Source: Aminivibrio pyruvatiphilus
GTDB taxonomy: Bacteria > Synergistota > Synergistia > Synergistales > Aminobacteriaceae
DNA length: 56,606 nucleotides
Direction of reading: 5' to 3'
Assembly (NCBI RefSeq): GCF_004366815.1
Contig: NZ_SORI01000020.1
Location: 1 to 56,606, forward strand
In this document: positions 6,494 to 56,606 of the stretch, piece after piece
How the letters are laid out: each line of letters starts with the position of its first letter
Position numbering within the stretch: the first letter of the stretch is position 1
Notes under the pieces: model-generated
Seen by the model: the letters and a program-made list of their open reading frames with translations, nothing else
Database searches by the model: none
What the model was told of the DNA's origin: nothing
Position numbers and translations under genes: made by a program

Positions 6494-8104
6494 ATGGCAA
6501 GCATTGTCTTCCAGAAGGACAAACGCTCCGGGATCACCTACGCCTATGAATCGGTCTCCTACTGGGACAAGGAAAAAAAGCAGTCACGGGCGAAGCGGAC
6601 CCTGGTCGGCCGGGTCGATGAAAAAACAGGCGAGATCAGTCCCACCGACGGCAGGGGACGAAAGAAAAGAGCCGGGGAGACAGCGGCCAAGCCCGGCCCC
6701 GTTCCGGCCACCCGGACCGCGAGGCTCTTCTACGGTGCGACCTGGCTCTTCGATGCCATCGGGGAACAGCTGGGCATCACCGAGGACCTGAAGAGGTGCT
6801 TCCCGAAGACCTTCAGGCAGATCCTGTCCATAGCCTACTACCTTATTCTGGAGGACAAGAACCCGCTCTACCGGTTCGAGAAGTGGAGCACCCTTCACAA
6901 ACACCCCTGCGGGGAGAGCATCACCTCCCAGCGCAGCAGCGAGCTCTTCGCGTCCATCACGGAAGAAGGGAAGAACGAGTTCTTCAGGCTTCAGGGGAGA
7001 CGCCGTCTGGAGAATGAGTTCTGGGCTTATGACATCACCTCCATATCAAGCTGCTCCGAGTGCCTCAGGCAGGTTCTCTACGGCAACAACAAGGAGAACG
7101 ACCGTCTGCCCCAGTTGAACCTGGCCCTTGTCTTCGGCGAAAGCTCCGGGCTTCCTTTCTACTACGGCAAGATGGCCGGGAACATCCCCGACGTGAAGAC
7201 GGTCAAGCTTCTTCTGTCGGAGCTGGACATTCTCGGATACTCAAAGGTCAAGCTGGTCATGGACAGGGGGTTCTACAGCGAGGACAACCTCAACGCCCTC
7301 TTCAGGGAGCATGTCAAGTTCCTGATCGCGGGGAAGATGTCCCTGTCCTTCGTCAGGCAGAATCTGGAACCCATATACGGGCAGTTCCGCTCCTACGACC
7401 GCTTCAACGACACGTACGGGCTCTACTGCCATACGGTGCAGGCCGAATGGAACTACAGGCAATACCGTCCGTACAAGGGGGATACTGTCTCGGAGCCGAG
7501 GCGCATCTACGTGCACTACTACTACAACATCGACAGGGCGGCCGAGGAAGAGAAGGCCTTCGACCGCCGGCTGATCGCCCTCAGGAACGAACTCGAGTCG
7601 GGCAAAAGGGTTCCGGAGCACGAGGCCGGGTACAGCAGGTACTTCGACATCAGGACCGCACCCAAACGGGGGATCAGAGTCACCGTCAGGGAGGAAGCTG
7701 TGGCCAAAGAGAAAGAGCTGTTAGGTTTCTTCGCCCTGCTCACCAACGAGACCATGGACGCAGTCACCGCCCTTGAGCTCTACCGCAACAAGGACCTGGT
7801 CGAGAAGGCCTTCGGCAACCTCAAGGAGCGGCTCAACATGAGGCGAACTCTTGTTTCTTCGGAACAAAGCCTCGAAGGCAAACTGTTCGTTGAGTTCATC
7901 GCCCTGATTTACCTGTCGTACATAAAGAAGCGGATGCAGGATACGGGCCTGTTCAGGGACTACACCCTTCAGGGACTTCTGGATAAACTTGATGTGATCG
8001 AATGCTTTGAGCATCCGGGGCAAAGACTGCTTGTCGGCGAAGTTTTGGAGAAACAGAAACAAATCTATGTCGCGCTGGGTGTTCCGCCTCCAGGCTCGTT
8101 ATGA
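6494..8104 (+). CDS. IS1634-family (IS4 superfamily) transposase
   Basis: A 536-residue DDE transposase with the layout of the IS1634 family: an N-terminal segment with SYWDKEKKQSRAKRTLVGRVDEKTG, a central Asp region (ELDILGYSKVKLVMDRGFYSEDNL) and the C-terminal catalytic-Glu region (ELYRNKDLVEKAFGNLKERLNMRR). It is full length and uninterrupted, with a good ribosome site (GAGGAGGTGGGG), so it is probably active. Its stop lies 17 bp inside the right end of the element. This element broke an ArsR-type gene on its right and abuts the duplicated helicase/mutT junction on its left. Confidence 0.9.
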   Translation: MASIVFQKDKRSGITYAYESVSYWDKEKKQSRAKRTLVGRVDEKTGEISPTDGRGRKKRAGETAAKPGPVPATRTARLFYGATWLFDAIGEQLGITEDLKRCFPKTFRQILSIAYYLILEDKNPLYRFEKWSTLHKHPCGESITSQRSSELFASITEEGKNEFFRLQGRRRLENEFWAYDITSISSCSECLRQVLYGNNKENDRLPQLNLALVFGESSGLPFYYGKMAGNIPDVKTVKLLLSELDILGYSKVKLVMDRGFYSEDNLNALFREHVKFLIAGKMSLSFVRQNLEPIYGQFRSYDRFNDTYGLYCHTVQAEWNYRQYRPYKGDTVSEPRRIYVHYYYNIDRAAEEEKAFDRRLIALRNELESGKRVPEHEAGYSRYFDIRTAPKRGIRVTVREEAVAKEKELLGFFALLTNETMDAVTALELYRNKDLVEKAFGNLKERLNMRRTLVSSEQSLEGKLFVEFIALIYLSYIKKRMQDTGLFRDYTLQGLLDKLDVIECFEHPGQRLLVGEVLEKQKQIYVALGVPPPGSL

Positions 8105-17904: not shown

Positions 17905-18420
17905 GTGAATCCCGTCCGCAGCTTCCCTCCTTCCGCCCGGCCCGATGCGGTGGTTCTTCTCCTGGGGAGCATGCCGGGAGAGGCGTCCCTGAAGGCCGGG
18001 CAGTATTACGCCCATCCGCGGAACGCCTTCTGGCCCATCATGGAGGCCGTCCTGGACATCCGGCGGGACCTGCCCTACGTCGAGCGTCTTGCCGCCCTGG
18101 CGGAGAGGCGCATCGCCCTGTGGGACGTGCTGGCGTCCTGCGTGCGGCCCGGGAGCCTGGATTCGTCCATCCTCGGGTCCACGGCGGTGCCCAACGACTT
18201 TCCCGGTTTTTTCCGGAGGTATGCCCTTATCCGGACGGTGTTCTTCAACGGCGCGAAGGCCGAACAGGCGTGGAAGCGCTCGGTGGCGCCGTCCCTGCCT
18301 GACGTGGGCCTCCGGCTCGTCCGCCTGCCCTCCACCAGCCCGGCCCATGCCGGCCTGAGCCTGCAGCAGAAAATTGACGCCTGGCGTGCGGTGGCCGAGG
18401 CGGCGGAGGTGTTGTCCTGA
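17905..18420 (+). CDS. DNA-deoxyinosine (hypoxanthine) glycosylase of the uracil-DNA glycosylase superfamily
   Basis: A 171-residue protein. It belongs to the family that excises deaminated purine bases (hypoxanthine from dI) and starts base-excision repair. Seen: the LLLGSMPGEASLKAGQYYAHPRNAFWPIM block, which forms the active-site loop and base pocket, and the closing LPSTSPAHAGL, corresponding to the minor-groove loop motif. Length and motifs agree with the single-domain family. The N-terminal segment before RPDAVVLLLG is short, so ATG or GTG choice matters little. It is followed directly by the repeat array. Confidence 0.8.
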   Translation: MNPVRSFPPSARPDAVVLLLGSMPGEASLKAGQYYAHPRNAFWPIMEAVLDIRRDLPYVERLAALAERRIALWDVLASCVRPGSLDSSILGSTAVPNDFPGFFRRYALIRTVFFNGAKAEQAWKRSVAPSLPDVGLRLVRLPSTSPAHAGLSLQQKIDAWRAVAEAAEVLS

Positions 18421-18427
18421 GGGCAGG

Positions 18428-18895
18428 TTGTCATCCTGAGCGAATGCGAAGGATCTCGGGCCTGAGTCTCTCCTGAATCAAAAGCGAGATCCTTCGGCCA
18501 AAAGGCTGGCCTCAGGATGACAAAAAAGGGTTGTCATCCCGAGCGAATGCGGAGGGATCTCGGGCTTGAGTCTCTCCTGAATCAAAAGCGAGATCCTTCG
18601 GGCGTGATGCTGCCCTCAGGATGACAAAAAAGGGTTGTCATCCTGAGCGAATGCGGAGGGATCTCGGGCTTGAGTCTCTCCTGAATCAAAAGCGAGATCC
18701 TTCGGCCGAGATACCGGCCTCAGGATGACAAAAAAGGGCTGTCATTCCGGGCGAATGCGATCGATTTGCTCGTTCGGGACGACAGGACCAGGTTGTCATC
18801 CTGAGCGAACGCGAAGGATCTCGCAGTTGGTTTTCAGGAGGCCCGAGATCTTCCCCGCAGGGGAAGGATCTCGGCCCGGAAGGAATTTAGATTGC
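18428..18895 (+). repeat. Palindromic repeat array, about 103-bp period
   Basis: Units start at 18428, 18531, 18635 and about 18739, followed by a degenerate unit. Each begins TTGTCATCCTGAGCGAATGC, continues GGATCTCGGGC and a 5' arm mirrored by GAGATCCTTCGG, and ends CTCAGGATGACAAAAAA. One transcribed unit can fold into a long hairpin (GTCATCCTGAG with CTCAGGATGAC). It contains no coding frame that I can support. Related units form the second array at 21825-22528. Confidence 0.9.
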
Positions 18896-18925
18896 CTGCC
18901 TGCAGCTTAAACCATCGCTCCCGGT

Positions 18926-20041
18926 TTATCCGCGGTCCCTTCCCGTGAAGAGCCATCCGCCGGCCAGGGCGGTGAAGGGGGCCACGGTGACCAGGCCGAA
19001 GCTTCCGACGAGGGTGTGGAGTATTTCCGCCGAGACGTACTGCATGTTCAGGATGTTGGCCAGGGGGACGCCCTGGGCGACGAAGACCAGCAGCAGGCTG
19101 GAATAGCTGCCCGTGTAGGCCAGCAGCAGCGTGGTGGTCATGGTTCCCACCACCGATCTGCCCACGGCGAAGCCGGACAGGACAAGCTGCCTCCGGGAGA
19201 GGTCCGGCCGCTTCTCCGCGATCTCGGCCATGGCGCTGGATACGTCCATGGCGAGGTCCATCACCGCCCCGGAGGACGCCAGGAATATCCCCCCCAGGAA
19301 GATGCGGGTCAGGTCGAGGTGGGCGAAGCCGCTGTAGAGCAGGGTCTCCGAGAAGGGCTTCACAGCGCCGTGGATGCGGAATTCGCTGCCGAAATAGAGG
19401 GAGAGGCCGCAGGTCAGCAGGATCCCGAGAGCGGATCCCAGGAAGGCTGCCGTGCCCTTGCGGCCGACCCCGCCTACGAGAAAGACGATGGCGGCGGTGA
19501 GGGCAAGGGCGGTAAAAAGGGAGATGAGCACCGGGTCAAGTCCGGCGAGGTACCCGGGAAGCAGCACCTTCCAGATCATGGCGCCGGTGAAGAAGAAGGA
19601 GAGCAGGGCCCGGGCGCCCGTCCACCCGCCGAAGAGAAGGAGGAGGGCGCAGAAGAGGGCCAGCAGCCGGAGCTGGGTGTCCAGCCGGTAATGGTCCAGG
19701 ACGCTGGCCTTGGCGATCCGCCCGGCGTCAGCGTCCACCACGGCAAAGGCAATGTCGCCGGGAACGAAGACCTTGTCCAGCTCCAGCCGACCCGCCAGAT
19801 GGTTCACAGCGTCGGTTTCCGTTCCCCTGAAGCTCCCTTCCAGGATCCGGATGCGGAGCCCCTGGTCACCGGTCCGCACGATGCCGAACTGCCGCATGTT
19901 CGAGTTGTCCGTCGACAGGATGCGGACCTTCACCCGCTCCGCCGAATCGGGAGCCTGTTTCCAGGAGGGAAGAAGGAAGAGGGCCAGGGTGAGCAGCAGA
20001 AAGAGCAGGGTCAGCAGGTGGTCCCGCCGTTTCGATTCCAT
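18926..20041 (-). CDS. YibE/F-family membrane protein
   Basis: A 371-residue integral membrane protein with an N-terminal helix at about residues 8-25. An extracytoplasmic beta-rich segment (about 35-120) follows, with the FxGTETD and VxxGD patterns found before the helices of the YibE/F family. Seven or more membrane segments then carry GAVMDLAMDVSSAMAEI and GRSVVGTMTTTLLLAYTGSYSSLLL. GGGGAGG precedes the start. Transport substrate is unknown for the family. It lies 76 bp downstream of the alkaline phosphatase, which is also on the minus strand. Confidence 0.82.
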   Translation of the reverse strand: MESKRRDHLLTLLFLLLTLALFLLPSWKQAPDSAERVKVRILSTDNSNMRQFGIVRTGDQGLRIRILEGSFRGTETDAVNHLAGRLELDKVFVPGDIAFAVVDADAGRIAKASVLDHYRLDTQLRLLALFCALLLLFGGWTGARALLSFFFTGAMIWKVLLPGYLAGLDPVLISLFTALALTAAIVFLVGGVGRKGTAAFLGSALGILLTCGLSLYFGSEFRIHGAVKPFSETLLYSGFAHLDLTRIFLGGIFLASSGAVMDLAMDVSSAMAEIAEKRPDLSRRQLVLSGFAVGRSVVGTMTTTLLLAYTGSYSSLLLVFVAQGVPLANILNMQYVSAEILHTLVGSFGLVTVAPFTALAGGWLFTGRDRG

Positions 20042-20117
20042 GAAATAACCTCCCCAATTGAAAAAGACCGGAGGGAGTCGCCTCCGCCCGGCCTTGTGGT
20101 GTGAGTTTCCGGTGTGT

Positions 20118-21644
20118 CTACCGCACGCCGAGGATGGACATGGTCTTCCAGGCGACGTCCGTGTTGTCGTAGTATCCGGCGAAGAGTTCGGAGCCGAGGC
20201 CCGCTGCGAAGAGAGGAACGGGGATGCCGGTGTGGGCGTAGGAGGTCCAGCCGATGCCGGCCTTCCGGTTGAGGATGTGGGTGATCTTCACCGAGAGGGG
20301 CTCGTAGCCGCCGTAGAGCAGGAAGGTGGCTTCGTCCTTGGCCCGTTCCTTCTTCTCGAGCATGCTGTTTTCAAAGGCCGCGCGAAGCTCACCGAGTTCA
20401 AGTTCGGAGAGGGTCATGGAGAGGGCGATCCGGGCTTCGTCATCGCCGGCCCTGGCCTTTTCCTCGAGGGCGGCGCGTTCTTCGGGGGTGGCGGTGCGGA
20501 GCCCGAAGGATCCGGTGATGAGGGGCATCATCTTCTCGAAGGTCTTTTCGCTTTCCTTCCGGAAGGCGGCGATCTTCCTGTCGAAGGCCTCGTAGGACTC
20601 CTTCTGATGGGCGATCTTCTCGAAGAATGTCTCGTACTCAGTGCCGGCGAAGCCGATGCTCATGCCGCCGGTCTCATGGTCTCCCACGACGATGATCAGC
20701 GTCTCGTCAGGGTGCTTCTCAGCGAAGGCCAGGGCTTCCTTCACGGCCGCGTCGAAGGCGAAGGTGTCGCCGATGGCTGCAGCCGCGTCGTTCGCGTGGC
20801 AGGCCCAGTCAATCTTGCCGCCCTCGACCATAAGGAAGAACCCTTCAGGGTTGTGGAGCATCTCGATGCCCTTGCGGGTGAACTCGGCGAGGGAGAGTTC
20901 CTTATCCGTCCGGTCCATGTCGTAGGGCATGGCGTTGCTGCCGTCGAGGACCGGGTTCACCGCTATGACCTTCGTGCCGGGCTGCGCCGAGAGGATGTCT
21001 TCCCTGGTGCGGAGGACCTGGTAGCCCTTCTCTTTCGCGATTTCGTAGAGGTCTCTGCAGTCCTTGTCCTTGCCGGTGCTCTGATGCAGGCCGCCGCCGG
21101 CGAAGAAATCAAAGCCGCTGTCGATGAGCTGTTCCCCGATGCCGTAGTAGTCGTTCCGGGACGGGACGGAGGCGTAAAAGGCTGCCGGGGTGGCGTGGTT
21201 GAGTGACACGGAGGTGAGAACACCGACTTTCATTCCCTTGGCGCGGACCATCTGGGCGACGGTGGTGAACTTCTGTTTCTTGGCGGGGTCCATGCCGATG
21301 ACGCCGTTGTCAGTCTTGTAGCCCGCGGCGAGGGACGTGGCCGCGGGTGCCGAGTCGGTGATGAAGGAGTTGGTGGAGTAGGTGGTGATCATCCCCTGCA
21401 CCGGGAGGCCGCTCAGGGCCAGCTTCTTGATCGCGGGCTCGCCGCCCGTCCTGTTGACGGAACCGTTGTAAACCTCCGCCGCGTTGACCTGCTGGAGCCC
21501 AAGGCCGTCGCCGATGAACATGAAAACGTACTTTGCCTTCCGGCCGCTCCAGTCGTTGCCCGTCCCGGCCGCCCAGGCCGCCGCTGCCAGCGTCAGCAGG
21601 ACAAAGAGCGCCAGTCCTGTTCTGTTCCGAAATGATCGTTTCAT
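20118..21644 (-). CDS. Alkaline phosphatase
   Basis: A 508-residue precursor with a signal peptide (MKRSFRNRTGLALFVLLTLAAAAWA) and AAGGAGGG before the chosen ATG 21644; upstream in-frame codons are not conserved-looking. Family marks are FIGDGLG with metal ligand D46, TDSAPAATSLAAG with the nucleophile Ser98, EGGKIDWACHANDA and VVGDHETGG for the second metal site. An Ala/Glu-rich insert at about residues 345-440 is predicted helical and replaces the usual compact crown. It probably acts outside the inner membrane to release phosphate. A weak hairpin with a T run (about 20060-20095) separates it from the YibE/F gene. Repeats flank the pair. Confidence 0.88.
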   Translation of the reverse strand: MKRSFRNRTGLALFVLLTLAAAAWAAGTGNDWSGRKAKYVFMFIGDGLGLQQVNAAEVYNGSVNRTGGEPAIKKLALSGLPVQGMITTYSTNSFITDSAPAATSLAAGYKTDNGVIGMDPAKKQKFTTVAQMVRAKGMKVGVLTSVSLNHATPAAFYASVPSRNDYYGIGEQLIDSGFDFFAGGGLHQSTGKDKDCRDLYEIAKEKGYQVLRTREDILSAQPGTKVIAVNPVLDGSNAMPYDMDRTDKELSLAEFTRKGIEMLHNPEGFFLMVEGGKIDWACHANDAAAAIGDTFAFDAAVKEALAFAEKHPDETLIIVVGDHETGGMSIGFAGTEYETFFEKIAHQKESYEAFDRKIAAFRKESEKTFEKMMPLITGSFGLRTATPEERAALEEKARAGDDEARIALSMTLSELELGELRAAFENSMLEKKERAKDEATFLLYGGYEPLSVKITHILNRKAGIGWTSYAHTGIPVPLFAAGLGSELFAGYYDNTDVAWKTMSILGVR

Positions 21645-21824
21645 AGTTTTTCCCTCCTTGAAGTATTTGACGCCATTATCCGGAGAGAGCGTTACGGATG
21701 AAGCGCGGAAGTGTATCGGGGGTGTAAAAAGTTGGGGGATGGAAAGAGGGGGACGAACCGGGCGGAGAGTTGTCCCGCAGCGGGGGAAGGGTCTCGGTTG
21801 CATTTGAAAACTCCCTGAGCAAGA

Positions 21825-22528
21825 TTGTCATCCTGAGCGAATGCGAAGGATCTCGGGCTAAGGCCTTCAGAATCAAAAGCAGGTCCCTCCCCCCCTGCGG
21901 GGATGCTTCGCTATCACTTCGCTCGTTCGGGACGACAGGGTGTAGCTTGTCATCCTGAGCGAATGCGAAGGATCTCGGGCTAAGGCCTTCAGAATCAAAA
22001 GCAGGTCCCTCCCCCCCTGCGGGGATGCTTCGCTATCACTTCGCTCGTTCGGGACGACAGGGTGTAGCTTGTCATCCTGAGCGAATGCGAAGGATCTCGC
22101 TTCTGAGGAAATCCAGAACCTACCCCGAGATCCTTCCCCTTCGGGGACGCGATCGGCCAAGGGGCTGGCCTCAGGATGACAAAAAAGAGTCTTCATCCCG
22201 AACCCCGGCTTTCATCCCGAGCGAATGCGATCATTTCGCTCGTTCGGGACGACAGGGTGTAGCTTGTCATCCTGAGCGAATGCGAAGGATCTCGGGCTTG
22301 AGTCTATCCAGAATCAAAAACGAGATCCTTCCCCTTCGGGGACGCGATCGGCCAAGAGACCGGCCTCAGGATGACAAAAAAGAGTCTTCATCCCGAACCC
22401 CGGCTCTCATCCTGAGCGAATGCGAAGGATCTCGCTTCTGAGGAAATCCAGAACCTACCCCGAGATCCTCCCCCTTCGGGGGCGCGATCGGCCAAGGAGC
22501 TGGCCTCAGGATGACAGGAGCCGTAAAT
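21825..22528 (+). repeat. Second palindromic repeat array, 122-bp period at the start
   Basis: TTGTCATCCTGAGCGAATGC recurs at 21825, 21947 and 22069, and again near 22265 and 22405. The first two 122-bp units are identical copies. Later units carry the arms GAGATCCTTCCCCTTCGGGG and end in CCTCAGGATGACAAAAAAGAG. The units are the same family as the 18428 array. The remainder of 21645-22749 holds no supported gene. Confidence 0.9.
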
Positions 22529-22749: not shown

Positions 22750-25527
22750 ATGTCCTCTTCCGGTCCTCCTGCCCGCCTTCTCCGGTATTTCCTTCCATTG
22801 TTTCTCTGTCTTTGTGTCCTTGCGTGTGCAGGCACTCCGGCCCTGGCCGCGGTCTGGCATGTGAGGCCGTCCGGTGCCGGAAACGGGTCGGACTGGGAAA
22901 ACGCTACCCCGGATCTCGCGGCGGTTCTGAAGAACGCCCAGCCGGGAGACGAGATCCGGGCGGCGGAGGGAGTCTATGTCCCCTCGTTCGACAGGGACGG
23001 GAACCCGGTGAACGGCGCGGCCCGGACCTTCGCACTGAAGAGCGGCGTGAAGCTCCTGGGCGGTTTTCCGGCTGAAGGAAGCCCGTCGCTGCAGGACAGG
23101 GACCCCAGGGCATTCCCCACGGTCCTCACCGGGGACCTTTTCGGAGACGACCAGGTCGATGCCGAAGGAAAAGCGGTCCTTATCGGTCAGAACGCCTATC
23201 ACGTGGTGTATGCCGCCGGGGTGGACGAAACGGCGGTGCTCGACGGCTTTGTCATTTCGGGAGGCAGGGCGGACGGCCAGGGTGAAGACGCCATGGGGGG
23301 CGGAATGTACTGCATAAATGCCTCTCCGGTCATTGAAAACTGTGTGTTTCGGGGGAATGCCGCAAAGGCCGGCGGCGGGGGAATGTACAATTCCGCTTCC
23401 AGTCCGTACGTCAGGAAATGTTCCTTTCTGGAAAATACATCTTCCGGCAGCGGAGGGGGCATGTTAAACTCCGCCTCCGATCCTGTTGTGGAGGACTGTC
23501 TTTTCCGGAATAACTTCATCTCCGCTCCGTCAGGGTCGGCATACGGCGGAGGGATGGCGAATCGTTCGGCCTCCGCACCGTCGGTGAAAAACTGTGCCTA
23601 TATCGGAAACAGCGTGTACTCCGCCTCCGGTTCCGGCTACGGCGGCGGGATGTACACAGCGGCGTCCAGTACCGTTGAGGCAGTCAACTGCACCTTCAGC
23701 GGGAACGAAGCATCGGCGGCCGGAGTAGGAAAAGGCTACGGCGGGGCTTTCTACGTGACGGGGTCAGGTTCCTCTCTTGTGCTGCTGAACTCGACACTTT
23801 CGGAAAATAACGCCAAGAATTCCGGAAGCAGTTTGTATATCGACGGCGGTTCCGTAACGGCGGCAAACAGCATTTTCTTCGGCAGCGATTTAGTGCAGGT
23901 GAGGAAACAGGCAGACGGTTCCCTCGCGCTCCTTTCCTGTCTTTACCGGGCCGGAAGCGTAACAGGGACGGGGATTGTCTCGGAGAATATACTTTTCGGC
24001 GATCCGCTCCTTGGAGAGCCGGCGGACAACGGCGGCTTCAACCCCACCATGGCTCCCGGGGAAGGGAGCCCCGCCCTTGATGCCGGTGTGGGTCCCGGAG
24101 AGGTCAGCTTCAACGGCGGAGTCCTCGTCATTCCGGACAGGGACCAGCGCGGGAAGGAGAGGCCGGGCGGCGGGGCTGTGGATATCGGGGCCTGCGAGAT
24201 CCAGTGGTATTCCCTCTCGTCTTCCGCCTCGGGAAACGGCGAGGGGCACGTGGCGGTTTTCCCCGAAGCAGCGTCCTATGTCGAGGGAACGGAGGTCACT
24301 CTCTCAGCCCATCCGGCGGAAAGCTCCCTTTTCACGGGGTGGGATGGGGATCTGGCGGGGACCGTAAGTCCGGCGACGCTGGCCATGGACGGCGACAGGA
24401 CGGTGAGTGCCGCCTTCGCCCTTAAAACCTTTACCGTAACCACATCGGCAGGCCCGGGAGGAAGTGTCTCTCCATCGGCGACGGTTCAATGGGGAGGCTC
24501 CGTCACGGTCACCGTCACCCCGGACAGCGGCTACGCCGTCGCCGGGCTGCTGGTGGACGGAGTGCCTGTGGACGCCGCTTCATCCTATACCTTTAACGAT
24601 GTAACGTCGGACCGGACCCTTGCCGCCTCCTTCGCGGCGCTGAATCCCGGCGGCCCCGGTGACCCCGGAGACCCCGGTGACCCTGGTGACCCCGGTGACC
24701 CCGGAGACCCCGGAGACCCTGATGACCCGGGGGAACCGAATGAACCGGACGAACCGGACGAGCCGGATGTACCCGAAGAACCCAATCCCGCCGGGCGAAT
24801 CGTCATCCGCCAGGAAAGCGTCGCTCTGGATGCCCTCCTTTCGGGAACCATCACGGTTCCGCTGCCCGGGGGAACTGCCCCCGGCGATTTTTTCAGGGTG
24901 ACGTCGGCGGACATTTCGGACATCACCCTGCGCTCGTGTTCTCCGGAAGAGCTGGGGGAGGGCCGGCCCGGGGGGATGCTCTGCGCCGTTTCCTTCGAGA
25001 TAGGGGCTTCGGTGCCGCCGGGGAAGACGGGGATTCTGGCCGTGGACCTGGAGATGGCGGTCCCGGAGGAAAGCCTCTCCGAAGAATGCCGGCTGGCCAT
25101 CGCCGGGGGAGAGGAGACCCTGAGCCTCGCGGAGGCGTTTCTGGAGCATGTCTCCATGGTGAAGATCCTCCCCGAAGGAGGGTACGATTTCGGAATCCTC
25201 GCGAAGAAAAACGGCTTCGGCGCCGATCCCCTGGACTTTTTCACGGTGGTCCGGGATGAAGGAATTTTCAGGGTGGGTGTGCGGCTTCTCCTGGCCGACG
25301 GGGCAGCGGAGGACGTGCCGTCCGTGCAGGCCGTGTCGCGGGAAAGTGACAGCCGCTTCCTCGTCTTCGACGGGGAACGGGACGGGAGATTCAGGGATCC
25401 TGTGGCGGCGGCCGAAAGGGAGGACGGCGGAGTGTATCCGGCAGGCAGGGGAGGGTGCTCTGCCGTGAACCACGGCGGTTATGCCCTGTTCATCCTTCTG
25501 CCCCTGCTGCTTCTCGCCTGGAGATAG
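22750..25527 (+). CDS. Surface beta-helix protein with Synergist-CTERM-like tail
   Basis: A 925-residue precursor. ATG 22750 is chosen because of AGGGAG upstream; ATG 22729 is possible. The signal peptide is followed by VWHVRPSGAGNGSDWENATPDL, typical of right-handed beta-helix (polymorphic-membrane-type) proteins. Next come many GGGMYN/ENCVFRGN-like turns (about residues 170-370). Two InlB B-repeat-like segments follow (GEGHVAVFPEAASYVEGTEVTLSAHP and the next copy), then a Gly-Asp-Pro linker (GDPGDPGDP..., about 640-665) and a cohesin-like or beta-sandwich region. The tail GGCSAVNHGGYALFILLPLLLLAWR combines a GGC motif, a hydrophobic helix and a basic end, as in Synergist-CTERM sorting signals. 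It is probably anchored on the surface and may bind other cells or substrate. Confidence 0.82.
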   Translation: MSSSGPPARLLRYFLPLFLCLCVLACAGTPALAAVWHVRPSGAGNGSDWENATPDLAAVLKNAQPGDEIRAAEGVYVPSFDRDGNPVNGAARTFALKSGVKLLGGFPAEGSPSLQDRDPRAFPTVLTGDLFGDDQVDAEGKAVLIGQNAYHVVYAAGVDETAVLDGFVISGGRADGQGEDAMGGGMYCINASPVIENCVFRGNAAKAGGGGMYNSASSPYVRKCSFLENTSSGSGGGMLNSASDPVVEDCLFRNNFISAPSGSAYGGGMANRSASAPSVKNCAYIGNSVYSASGSGYGGGMYTAASSTVEAVNCTFSGNEASAAGVGKGYGGAFYVTGSGSSLVLLNSTLSENNAKNSGSSLYIDGGSVTAANSIFFGSDLVQVRKQADGSLALLSCLYRAGSVTGTGIVSENILFGDPLLGEPADNGGFNPTMAPGEGSPALDAGVGPGEVSFNGGVLVIPDRDQRGKERPGGGAVDIGACEIQWYSLSSSASGNGEGHVAVFPEAASYVEGTEVTLSAHPAESSLFTGWDGDLAGTVSPATLAMDGDRTVSAAFALKTFTVTTSAGPGGSVSPSATVQWGGSVTVTVTPDSGYAVAGLLVDGVPVDAASSYTFNDVTSDRTLAASFAALNPGGPGDPGDPGDPGDPGDPGDPGDPDDPGEPNEPDEPDEPDVPEEPNPAGRIVIRQESVALDALLSGTITVPLPGGTAPGDFFRVTSADISDITLRSCSPEELGEGRPGGMLCAVSFEIGASVPPGKTGILAVDLEMAVPEESLSEECRLAIAGGEETLSLAEAFLEHVSMVKILPEGGYDFGILAKKNGFGADPLDFFTVVRDEGIFRVGVRLLLADGAAEDVPSVQAVSRESDSRFLVFDGERDGRFRDPVAAAEREDGGVYPAGRGGCSAVNHGGYALFILLPLLLLAWR

Positions 25528-54027: not shown

Positions 54028-56606
54028 CTACCTGATAAGCTTCGACCCGGAGAGAATGAAGGCCGCATAAGCCTCGGCGACCCCTGGATCCAGAAAGGTT
54101 CCCGCCCGCTGCCTCAGCTCCCTGACCGCATGGCTTTCCCAGCCCGGGCTGCCTTTGAATTGCACCTTCAGCCTGTCCCAGACCTCGGCGATCAGCAGAA
54201 TTCGTGCCTGGAGAGGAATGTCCTTTCCGCTTTTTCCGTTCGGAAAACCGGAACCGTCCCAGTGTTCGTGGTGGCAGAAAATCCACTCCGCATATTCCAG
54301 GGTTCCGTCGAAAAGATTCAGTATCCTGTAGCCCGCCGCAGGGTGAAGGATCATTTCTTTCCTGTCCTCCTCCTCCTCTACCAGACCGTCCTCCCGGTTG
54401 AGGTATTCCTGGCCCAGAACGACCTTGCCGATATCGTGCAGATACCCTGCAGCCTTCAGTTTTTCGACCTCTCCTTCGGACATCCCGAGGGTTTCTCCGA
54501 TCATACGGCAGGTCCCGCTCACAGATTCGGCATGCCTCTGTTCTCCGGGGCATTTTTCAAGCAGCGTTTCCATGATGGTCTTTACCATCTCGGAATCGAT
54601 GTCTTTCCTGTATAGGATTTTTTCCCTGTACATGGATTCTTCGGCAGCCTGGACGGCCTCGGCGAGATCTTGGCCCGGATCTGTCTTTGTCCCGGACCCC
54701 ATGGAAATGCTGCCCCGTATGGCGATAATTTTCCTGCCGGCAAAGTCGTTCCTGATTCTCCGGATGATCCTTCCGGCAGCCTCTTCACCCGTGTTTGTCA
54801 TGATGACGGCGAATTCGTCTCCCCCCAGCCTGGCCACGACATCCTTTCCACGGCAGGATCCTTTCAGCAGCTCCGCGGCGGAAACCAGGAGCCTGTCCCC
54901 CGCGGCGTGGCCGAAAACATCGTTCGTCAGCTTCAGGCCGTTGATGTCGCCGAAAAGAACCGTGACGGGCAGATTGCTTTCCGTGTCCGCCTCCTTCAGC
55001 GCTCTTTCAAAGAATGCCCGGTTGTGAAGACCTGTCAGGGAGTCATGGGTGCTGAGATAGTCTATTTTTGCCCGGCTTTTTCGCCTCTCGGAATTGTCCG
55101 TGAAGGAGACCACCGCTCCCACAATCTCTCCGTTCAAAAATTGAGGGTAAGAGTGGTAGTCAACCTCCAGGGGCGTGCCGTCGGCGCGCCGGAAGATTTC
55201 GTGGTCGGAGTGAGCATTCTCTCCCGTTAGAAGGGACAGGCAGATCCTGCACCGGGAAGGATCGATGGAAAATCCTTCAGAATCAGTATGATGGATCAGA
55301 GAATGCATGTTTTTCCCCCGAAGGATTTCGAGGCTTTCAAATCCCATGATCCGAAGAAAGCTCCAGTTGCAGAAGGTGCAGTTTCCCTTCAGATCTATGC
55401 CAAACACTGCGTCGCCGGTGGAATCGAGGAGCAGCCGGAGCATGTTTCTGCTCTCCGCCGTTTCCCTGCTCTGCTGTTCCAGTTCCCTGTTCGCCGCCTG
55501 GAGTTCGACGGTTCTCTCCTCCACGATCCTTTCCAGGTTGCCGAAAAGGGAGGAGATGGTGGCGGCCATGTCATTGAAGGCCCGGGCGATAAGCCCTATT
55601 TCGTCATCCCTGACTACCGGTGTCCGGGCCGAGAGGTTTCCGCCGGCAAATTCCGCGGAGGATCTGACCAGCAGTGTGACCGGGTTGAGCAGCTTCTTTG
55701 CAACTTTCATGTAAATGGCGATGGAAATCAGCTGGGACAGGAGCAGCAGAAGCCCCGAGAATCGGGCGCTCTCCTTGATGGACCCGGCAAGAAGGTTTCC
55801 CGGCAGGGCCGTGAGGATTACAAGATCCAGCCCTTCTCCGGTATAGCCGGAGAAGAACAGAAGAAACTGCCCGTCGGGTGTTTCCGAAAGGAAATCTGTT
55901 TCTCCCGTGGACTGGTAGTGATGCAATGCCTCTCCCATCAAATTGCTGTATCTCCCGTCCCTGGAAGAGGAGGAGAGCAGGGTCATGGTGTTTCTATCGA
56001 AAACAGCCGCAAAGGATCGTTCGTGGCTGACCGTCTGTTTAATCCGCTCATCGAGAAAGGAAAAAGGGATCCGGGTCCCGGTCACCCCGAGCGGTTTCCC
56101 GTTATTGCCGTAGACGGGATGGACTGCCGAAAGGACTGGATCTCCGGAGTATGACGGGCCAAAGAGCACTGAAAGGACAGGCTCACCATTTTCCAGGACT
56201 TTCCGGAACAAGAAAGAATTTTTTACATCGTCTTTATGGAGGGGTTCCACAGGGAGACCGGATTCGCCGGAGAACCAGGCAAAACCTTTCCCCTTCCCGT
56301 CGGGACGGATGAATTCCGGGCTTCCCGCCGGATTATTCCGGGCGCCGTAGGACACGCCGCCGGGGGTCTCGAAAAAAATGCCGGAGATCTCCCCTGAATG
56401 AACCTCGAGAATTCCACGAAAAAACCGTTCCCTCTTTCCGACGTCTTCCAGATCGACAAACCCGTTTCCGAGCGCAGCGCTGCATGCAGCGCTTATTCCG
56501 GCAGGGACGGCGAGAAATTCCCGAACCTTCTGGACCGCAATTTCGTTCTTGTCCCGGTTCATTATGCTCACGGCGTCCCTGGCCATTCTGAAGCCCCTGG
56601 AAAAGG
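54028..56606 (-). CDS. Cache-HAMP-PAS-GGDEF-HD-GYP regulator, paralogue 2 (5' partial)
   Basis: The frame is open to the window edge; the first codons with the leading membrane helix lie outside. The visible 858 codons include a dCache sensor, second helix (about 280-305 from the edge), HAMP (about 310-360), PAS, GGDEF (RLGGDEFAVIM, intact) and an HD-GYP region with HDIGKVV. In place of GYP it has GFP (HHEHWDGSGFPNGKSGKDIP), so the phosphodiesterase loop differs. It resembles the neighbouring paralogue in every domain except the sensor, which has diverged. It may therefore be mainly a cyclase, but this is inference. Confidence 0.86.
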   Translation of the reverse strand, partial: FSRGFRMARDAVSIMNRDKNEIAVQKVREFLAVPAGISAACSAALGNGFVDLEDVGKRERFFRGILEVHSGEISGIFFETPGGVSYGARNNPAGSPEFIRPDGKGKGFAWFSGESGLPVEPLHKDDVKNSFLFRKVLENGEPVLSVLFGPSYSGDPVLSAVHPVYGNNGKPLGVTGTRIPFSFLDERIKQTVSHERSFAAVFDRNTMTLLSSSSRDGRYSNLMGEALHHYQSTGETDFLSETPDGQFLLFFSGYTGEGLDLVILTALPGNLLAGSIKESARFSGLLLLLSQLISIAIYMKVAKKLLNPVTLLVRSSAEFAGGNLSARTPVVRDDEIGLIARAFNDMAATISSLFGNLERIVEERTVELQAANRELEQQSRETAESRNMLRLLLDSTGDAVFGIDLKGNCTFCNWSFLRIMGFESLEILRGKNMHSLIHHTDSEGFSIDPSRCRICLSLLTGENAHSDHEIFRRADGTPLEVDYHSYPQFLNGEIVGAVVSFTDNSERRKSRAKIDYLSTHDSLTGLHNRAFFERALKEADTESNLPVTVLFGDINGLKLTNDVFGHAAGDRLLVSAAELLKGSCRGKDVVARLGGDEFAVIMTNTGEEAAGRIIRRIRNDFAGRKIIAIRGSISMGSGTKTDPGQDLAEAVQAAEESMYREKILYRKDIDSEMVKTIMETLLEKCPGEQRHAESVSGTCRMIGETLGMSEGEVEKLKAAGYLHDIGKVVLGQEYLNREDGLVEEEEDRKEMILHPAAGYRILNLFDGTLEYAEWIFCHHEHWDGSGFPNGKSGKDIPLQARILLIAEVWDRLKVQFKGSPGWESHAVRELRQRAGTFLDPGVAEAYAAFILSGSKLIR

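Follow-up and report, generated by a model that had tools for sequence, protein, structure and literature searches.

Hairpin repeats of Aminivibrio pyruvatiphilus as putative cognate sites of an Ssn-like GIY-YIG nuclease

The window analysed here, a stretch of 56,606 nucleotides from Aminivibrio pyruvatiphilus that makes up one whole contig (C20, NZ_SORI01000020.1) of a 3.35-Mb genome in 62 contigs (G000), carries two arrays of a hairpin repeat, array A at 18428-18874 and array B at 21825-22519. The repeat is a repetitive extragenic palindrome (REP) with a TGTC tag, and its copies are probably the cognate single-stranded DNA (ssDNA) hairpin sites of a short, Ssn-like GIY-YIG nuclease encoded in the same genome, as sequence comparison across bacteria suggests. 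A single GIY-YIG clade, in which the type of repeat goes by subclade, accompanies CGTC-type REPs across phyla and is therefore a candidate for their cognate enzyme. The window adds a Synergistota case to these REPs, and the pairing suggests a reason for the changes in gene order and accessory genes at REP arrays.

Association of the repeat with a GIY-YIG nuclease

An exact 27/28-bp core of the repeat was found in at least 120 stretches of species genomes. Clustering of the open reading frames (ORFs) at 135 loci (120 of these stretches and 15 viral loci) made a short GIY-YIG protein adjoining the repeat stand out; among the 40 largest shared clusters, inspected by eye without a family search, no shared transposase was seen beside the repeats. 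The corresponding gene of A. pyruvatiphilus lies inside the REP array of contig C15 (C15:4702-5013) and encodes 103 amino acids matching PF01541 with 61 bits. Its counterpart in the congener G002 is 96% identical, occupies the same locus and is likewise bracketed by REPs, and bracketed relatives with 47-53% identity were found in Alphaproteobacteria (L107), Thermomicrobiales (L136) and Phycisphaerae (L146). The remaining short GIY-YIG proteins that tblastn retrieved from relatives within the Synergistota are 33-43% identical and have no REP in their flanks. A search of the PDB with the C15 nuclease returned UPF0213 protein BH0048 as its single match (1zg2, E 0.004), and a search of NCBIfam gave nothing over the cut-off.

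For a flank test, 48 repeat-bearing genomes were picked by hand from the core-bearing stretches; all 48 contain a GIY-YIG domain match when UvrC is counted. A gene was scored as positive when its 260-base flanks showed inverted similarity with a score of at least 30, shuffled flanks reaching 29 at most. The first sample comprised the best GIY-YIG match of the 30 genomes with returned loci, one being dropped for a short flank (n = 29), and the second comprised 20 further short GIY-YIG genes (15 second copies and 5 from other genomes of the 48). As controls we used the UvrC genes of 20 of the 48 genomes, together with 20 other GIY-YIG loci from Synergistota relatives, among them the second one of A. 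pyruvatiphilus. Inverted flanks were present in 14/29 best and 10/20 further matches, that is in 24/49 short GIY-YIG genes, versus 1/20 UvrC genes and 1/20 other GIY-YIG loci (Fisher p = 0.0003 with UvrC as the control and 2.5e-6 with both controls), and all four known REP-bracketed cases were positive. By inspection, the control positives were due to tRNA-like repeats at L219 and to another repeat family at L293, where the UvrC gene of G045 is bracketed by inverted repeats of the CCACAAAGACACCAAGACACAAAGG type.

In a tree of 63 proteins, from which 10 of 73 rows had been dropped for length or stops, a 30-row clade with support 100/100 contained 23 of the 25 REP-flanked rows, the pair from A. 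pyruvatiphilus and G002, and five rows without a scored flank. The REP-flanked rows outside it are L259, which falls just outside, and L266, which is long and probably badly framed; all 16 resident Synergistota GIY-YIG proteins in the tree also lie outside. The A. pyruvatiphilus pair is sister to L257 from G046, the genome of the Oscillospiraceae record L067 (support 98/92). A recognisable REP lies near 28 of the 30 clade members and is of the xxTGA type in 20, the TTGCGA type in four and the dRS3-like CCYGC type in four. Rows of the TTGCGA type group in one subclade and those of the CCYGC type in another (support 91/82 and 92/88), and none of 500 shuffles gave a value as low. Within the clade, Y15, G17, R25, H29 and E62 (fragment numbering) are present in 30/30 rows and N81 in 29/30; we take these to be the GIY-YIG catalytic residues.

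Hairpin structure and covariation of the repeat

Each REP consists of a TGTC tag, a stem ATCCT/AGGAT, a tandem G-A/G-A step and a distal stem with a short loop. REPs were collected with the pattern GTC-AT(NNN)-GA-distal-GA-(N'N'N')-AT-C, by which GTC, AT/AT and the first C of the tail are imposed. The three stem pairs tested were all Watson-Crick in 127/142 REPs of A. pyruvatiphilus (1000 shuffles: mean 59, maximum 79) and in 139/172 REPs of other records (shuffles: mean 43, maximum 59), with seven stem types; the latter REPs came from 83 of 119 loci, seed matches and the Synergistaceae locus L092 being left out. The base before GTC is T in 126/127 A. pyruvatiphilus REPs, so that the unpaired tag TGTC agrees with that of the CGTC superfamily, and the tail is CTC in 92/127 and CTG in 29/127. 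The stem extends over about nine steps but includes mismatches, being made up of the imposed AT/AT, the three pairs, the G-A/G-A step and more pairs.

The distal part measures 7-8 bases, with a 3-4-base loop on two pairs, in 45/142 A. pyruvatiphilus REPs and up to 39 bases in the others. Among all distal parts of 7 bases, position three is G in 53/62 and position five A in 55/62 (23/25 and 24/25 in A. pyruvatiphilus), and most read GCGNAGC. According to the account of such loops in PMC4686876, GCGNAGC folds into a DNA mini-hairpin of very high stability whose loop is GNA or GNNA, and GCGAAGC melts at 78 °C. By DNA folding parameters alone, isolated hairpins of 27-28 bases did not stand out in stability (z -0.5 and -1.2). 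Dimers with outward tags are present, and clusters are common rather than rare in the A. pyruvatiphilus genome.

The covarying stem contains few G-U pairs (4/426 cells in A. pyruvatiphilus and 10/888 in other records, seeds included), which indicates selection on DNA rather than on RNA. This bears on the explanation that the repeats are transcribed and, as hairpins at the ends of genes, terminate mRNA, stabilise it or process it. The strong folds of the units are in keeping with such a role, as are a REP that provides the stop codon of an A. pyruvatiphilus gene (L032, about 6930-6940) and the placement of REPs, in stretches chosen for REPs, in 9/16 convergent versus 12/115 co-directional gaps (p = 7e-5); divergent gaps contained them in 5/15 cases. 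Array B, however, sits between divergent genes, the dimers are followed on the + strand by an A-run and not by a T-run, and such a role would not account for the link with one subfamily of nucleases. Together with the rarity of G-U pairs, these features make an RNA-level function unlikely.

Arrays and neighbouring genes in the window

Both arrays consist of inverted dimers of about 96-122 bp of one hairpin repeat, a full dimer being two facing hairpins with outer ends TGTC/GACA and hence outward tags. On the + strand, array A comprises dimers A1 (18428-18523), A2 (18532-18627) and A3 (18636-18731) at 104-bp spacing, followed by a short single hairpin with TGTC/GACA ends (18739-18785) and a decayed dimer (18793-18874) with one recognisable REP at 18795-18820. 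Dimer A1 agrees at 96/96 bp with the dimer that comes first in the array of the sister species, and A3 shares 90/96 bases with A2. Tandem Repeats Finder (TRF) reported 3.2 copies at 18426-18759 with 91% matches. In array B, likewise on the + strand, two 122-bp units, B1 (21825-21946) and B2 (21947-22068), are the same at 122/122 bases and precede larger dimers, for which TRF gave a 195-bp period with 90% matches: the 114-bp dimer B3 with a branched fold (22069-22182), dimer B4 (22264-22377) and dimer B5 (22404-22517), whose tag is changed from GTC to CTC and which the strict REP pattern did not catch. A short single hairpin lies at 22209-22255. The 20-mer TTGTCATCCTGAGCGAATGC is common to both arrays, with exact + strand copies at 18428, 18635, 21825, 21947, 22069 and 22264. 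When folded as ssDNA and compared with shuffles, the units reached z values of -7.0 (A1), -2.7 (A2), -5.5 (A3), -2.1 (B1), -5.3 (B3) and -6.9 (B4).

An earlier sequence-only reading of this DNA had reported foldable hairpin arrays sharing TTGTCATCCTGAGCGAATGC at 18428-22528, and these were confirmed; its period of about 103 bp holds for the first unit of array A, the others being spaced mostly at 104 bp. The flanking genes that it named were borne out by profile matches, namely a YibE/F gene (18926-20041, - strand; PF07907, E 1e-76) and an alkaline phosphatase gene (20118-21644, - strand; PF00245, E 7e-71). Array A lies between the YibE/F gene and a convergent gene of the uracil-DNA-glycosylase superfamily to its left (17905-18420, + strand), and array B upstream of both the phosphatase gene and a divergent beta-helix protein gene to its right (22750-25527, + strand). 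A special tie between the arrays and the phosphatase-YibE pair, also suggested by that reading, is not supported, since the repeat is found genome-wide and the phosphatase of the congener G002 has no upstream array. Nor is duplication of the pair through the repeats upheld, the second phosphatase beside the array in the sister species G001 being 51% identical. This second phosphatase (L199 7000-8418) is the immediate neighbour of the array-B counterpart on its opposite side. A processing signal, which the reading offered as another possible role, is made less probable by the scarcity of G-U pairs.

Some further features of the window were noted. The repeats themselves create spurious ORFs on both strands at 21873-22441, with peptides such as HPERMRRIS, which annotation will probably list as hypothetical proteins. 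The beta-helix gene contains a 9-bp tandem repeat at 24646-24728 that encodes a Gly-Asp-Pro run. At Rfam gathering thresholds the single match in the window was an S-adenosylmethionine (SAM) riboswitch at 188-296 (90.7 bits), which precedes the first predicted gene, and no family matched the repeats.

Distribution of the repeat

At up to three mismatches the core has 46 copies in the A. pyruvatiphilus genome (26 on the + and 20 on the - strand), compared with none for the reversed-pattern control, and among the fetched stretches it is densest on contigs C12, C15, C38 and C41. Of the 137 strict REPs in the window and in 15 other stretches that were fetched, 136 are intergenic; the remaining one, within a predicted gene at window position 54766, is probably there by chance. 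The genome-wide map thus shows the repeat in many intergenic regions with no link to the phosphatase-YibE pair, which is largely the outcome that the sequence-only reading had itself named as contrary to its interpretation; overall, that interpretation is partly supported. On contig C12, a 5.4-kb stretch (L039 1293-6746) has nine strict REPs and no gene by simple prediction, and parts of it match G001 at 94-97% identity in changed order. The 7-kb contig C41 (L045 725-4858) carries one T2SSF and two T2SSE genes (Type IV pilus/type II secretion) flanked by REP arrays.

At up to two mismatches, the core occurs in 4 of 40 relatives including A. pyruvatiphilus itself, namely in G000, G001 and G002, which belong to a single genus, and in G011, from a second one, and is absent from two congeners in the same search. 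Among the matches listed, the core records fall by their titles into about 17 phylum-level groups: Nitrospirota, Omnitrophica, Chloroflexi, Acidobacteria, Firmicutes, Proteobacteria, Planctomycetes, Bacteroidetes, Elusimicrobia, Actinobacteria, Hydrogenedentota, Armatimonadetes, Verrucomicrobia, Synergistetes, Acholeplasmataceae, Parcubacteria and Aminicenantes. Because these records are mostly metagenome bins, some may be mis-binned; named strains with the core are Reyranella aquatilis KCTC 52223 and Butyricicoccus faecihominis DFI.6.109. Within 145 cores from 120 of these genome loci and 15 viral ones, 138 have no inserted base, six have an A and one, in the Synergistaceae isolate LM3-B4.3, has the T form of the window. 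The repeat was also considered as a phage feature and rejected as such, the general core being present in 15 viral contigs and the GAATGCG form of the window in none. A text search of the papers covered, for six core forms and six forms of the spurious repeat peptides, found none of them.

Gene order at the arrays

Gene adjacency was compared with G001 for mapped pairs in C12:46000-88130, C15:1-20000, C6:93000-106000 and the window from 14 to 36 kb. Adjacency was changed at 7/14 gaps with REPs (four more were unmapped) versus 1/30 other gaps (14 unmapped; p = 0.0006), and at 6/13 REP gaps when a contig-end case was left out (p = 0.0017). The gap of the C15 nuclease was scored as conserved in this count. 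At that locus, with flanks 97% and 91% identical, an NYN-domain gene (L314 7738-8559) replaces the REP-nuclease-REP block in G001, and REP remnants persist at both edges. At the array-A locus G001 has two extra genes matching AbiLi (E 8e-79) and RloB/AbiLii, an RloA/RloB-like defence pair (L199 11865-13825) that is absent from A. pyruvatiphilus. The neighbours of array B, the phosphatase and beta-helix genes, are on separate contigs in G001 and in G002, and on C12 the blocks separated by arrays follow a different order in G001. A 4.4-kb stretch of C6 without an array is likewise missing at its place in G001. The L032 site, where a REP provides the stop codon, was examined for an empty site, and none was clean: G001 has a REP there, and G002 has TAG without a REP and different DNA beyond the stop.

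The cognate-site reading would account for these changes as follows. When the DNA becomes single-stranded during replication, uptake or repair, the REP hairpin would form; the nuclease would bind the hairpin and nick there, and repair, whether by slippage or by recombination between copies, could then amplify units and join different neighbours at the arrays. A wider interpretation is that REP and GIY-YIG nuclease form one mobile, phylum-crossing system, in which the nuclease would be the missing mobiliser of CGTC-type REPs, cutting ssDNA hairpins, and REP-bracketed genes would be exchangeable modules. The NYN gene at the nuclease locus and the AbiL-type pair at array A bear on this last part, and we regard the wider interpretation as possible but doubtful.

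Recent amplification, as proposed in the sequence-only reading, is supported by the identical 122-bp units and by arrays that keep their place and differ in length between sister species. Both features would also be expected if an old insertion had expanded by replication slippage into inert tandem repeats that now have no partner enzyme. The same explanation draws on G001 and G011, two of the four repeat-bearing genomes, in whose assemblies no REP-type nuclease was found; the repeat can therefore persist without the nuclease. Compensatory changes nevertheless keep the stem paired, and the nuclease gene remains open within its array in two species, so that inertness, too, has a low probability.

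Several observations besides the missing nuclease of G001 and G011 weigh against the assignment of the REPs to the nuclease. At least 5 of the 48 repeat-bearing genomes (G047, G057, G067, G077 and G083) have a single GIY-YIG match of UvrC size, and 25/49 short GIY-YIG genes are without inverted flanks at the threshold. The CCYGC pattern was defined after the flanks had been seen, the TTGCGA row L295 carries xxTGA motifs too, and several clade rows are pairs from the same genome (G040, G045, G060 and G079). The 8-base distal forms GCGAATGC (6/18), GCGAACGC (4/18) and GCGGATGC (4/18) end their loops in a base other than A, and the common window loops GAAT, GAAC and GGAT are neither GNA nor GNNA. 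Finally, misjoins or breaks at arrays remain a concern because most of the compared genomes are drafts.

Comparison with known systems

The paired intergenic hairpins resemble the GTAG REPs mobilised in trans, as REPINs, by a REP-associated tyrosine transposase (RAYT, a Y1 HuH enzyme). A similar origin here is very improbable: palindromic, paired, high-copy repeats and Y1_Tnp matches in 12/40 relatives would suit it, but the tag is TGTC and not GTAG, and PF01797 matched none of the four repeat-bearing genomes versus 12/36 others, so that the transposase suggested by the sequence-only reading was not found in A. pyruvatiphilus. Integron attC sites were dropped on sight, as the ends have no attC core sites.

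Ssn nucleases are GIY-YIG enzymes that reportedly cut ssDNA at the NTS repeats of Neisseria and affect transformation (Chenal et al., Nat Commun, 2025). The nuclease described here is similar in that it is short, has GIY-YIG as its single domain and is encoded among the repeats that are its putative cognates, and one subclade of its clade goes with a dRS3-like repeat; the repeat sequence differs, and the present evidence is genomic. The linkage of REPs and nucleases reported here may overlap with the published Ssn work.

CGTC-tagged REPs, as described in the survey of Di Nocera 2013 (PMC3733652), include dRS3 of Neisseria and RPE-4 and RPE-6 of Rickettsia, and that survey found no dedicated transposase for them. 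We compared the window repeats with its text rather than with its consensus sequences. Both kinds have a terminal CGTC/TGTC tag and a 3-base tail, form outward-tag dimers, are intergenic in several phyla and show no RAYT association. The CGTC stem is given as 8-9 bp with complementary AT at the first two positions; in the window repeats the paired AT at the stem start was imposed by the search pattern. Unlike those REPs, the window repeats have the tail CTC where theirs is mostly CCA, distal parts of 3-39 bases where their loops have 4-5, a tandem G-A step and branched dimers, and they are often clustered where outward-tag dimers are described as predominant and clusters as rare. Synergistota is not among the five phyla given in that text. 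On these sequence features, the window repeats are likely a variant of the CGTC REPs, with an Ssn-like nuclease as the likely partner.

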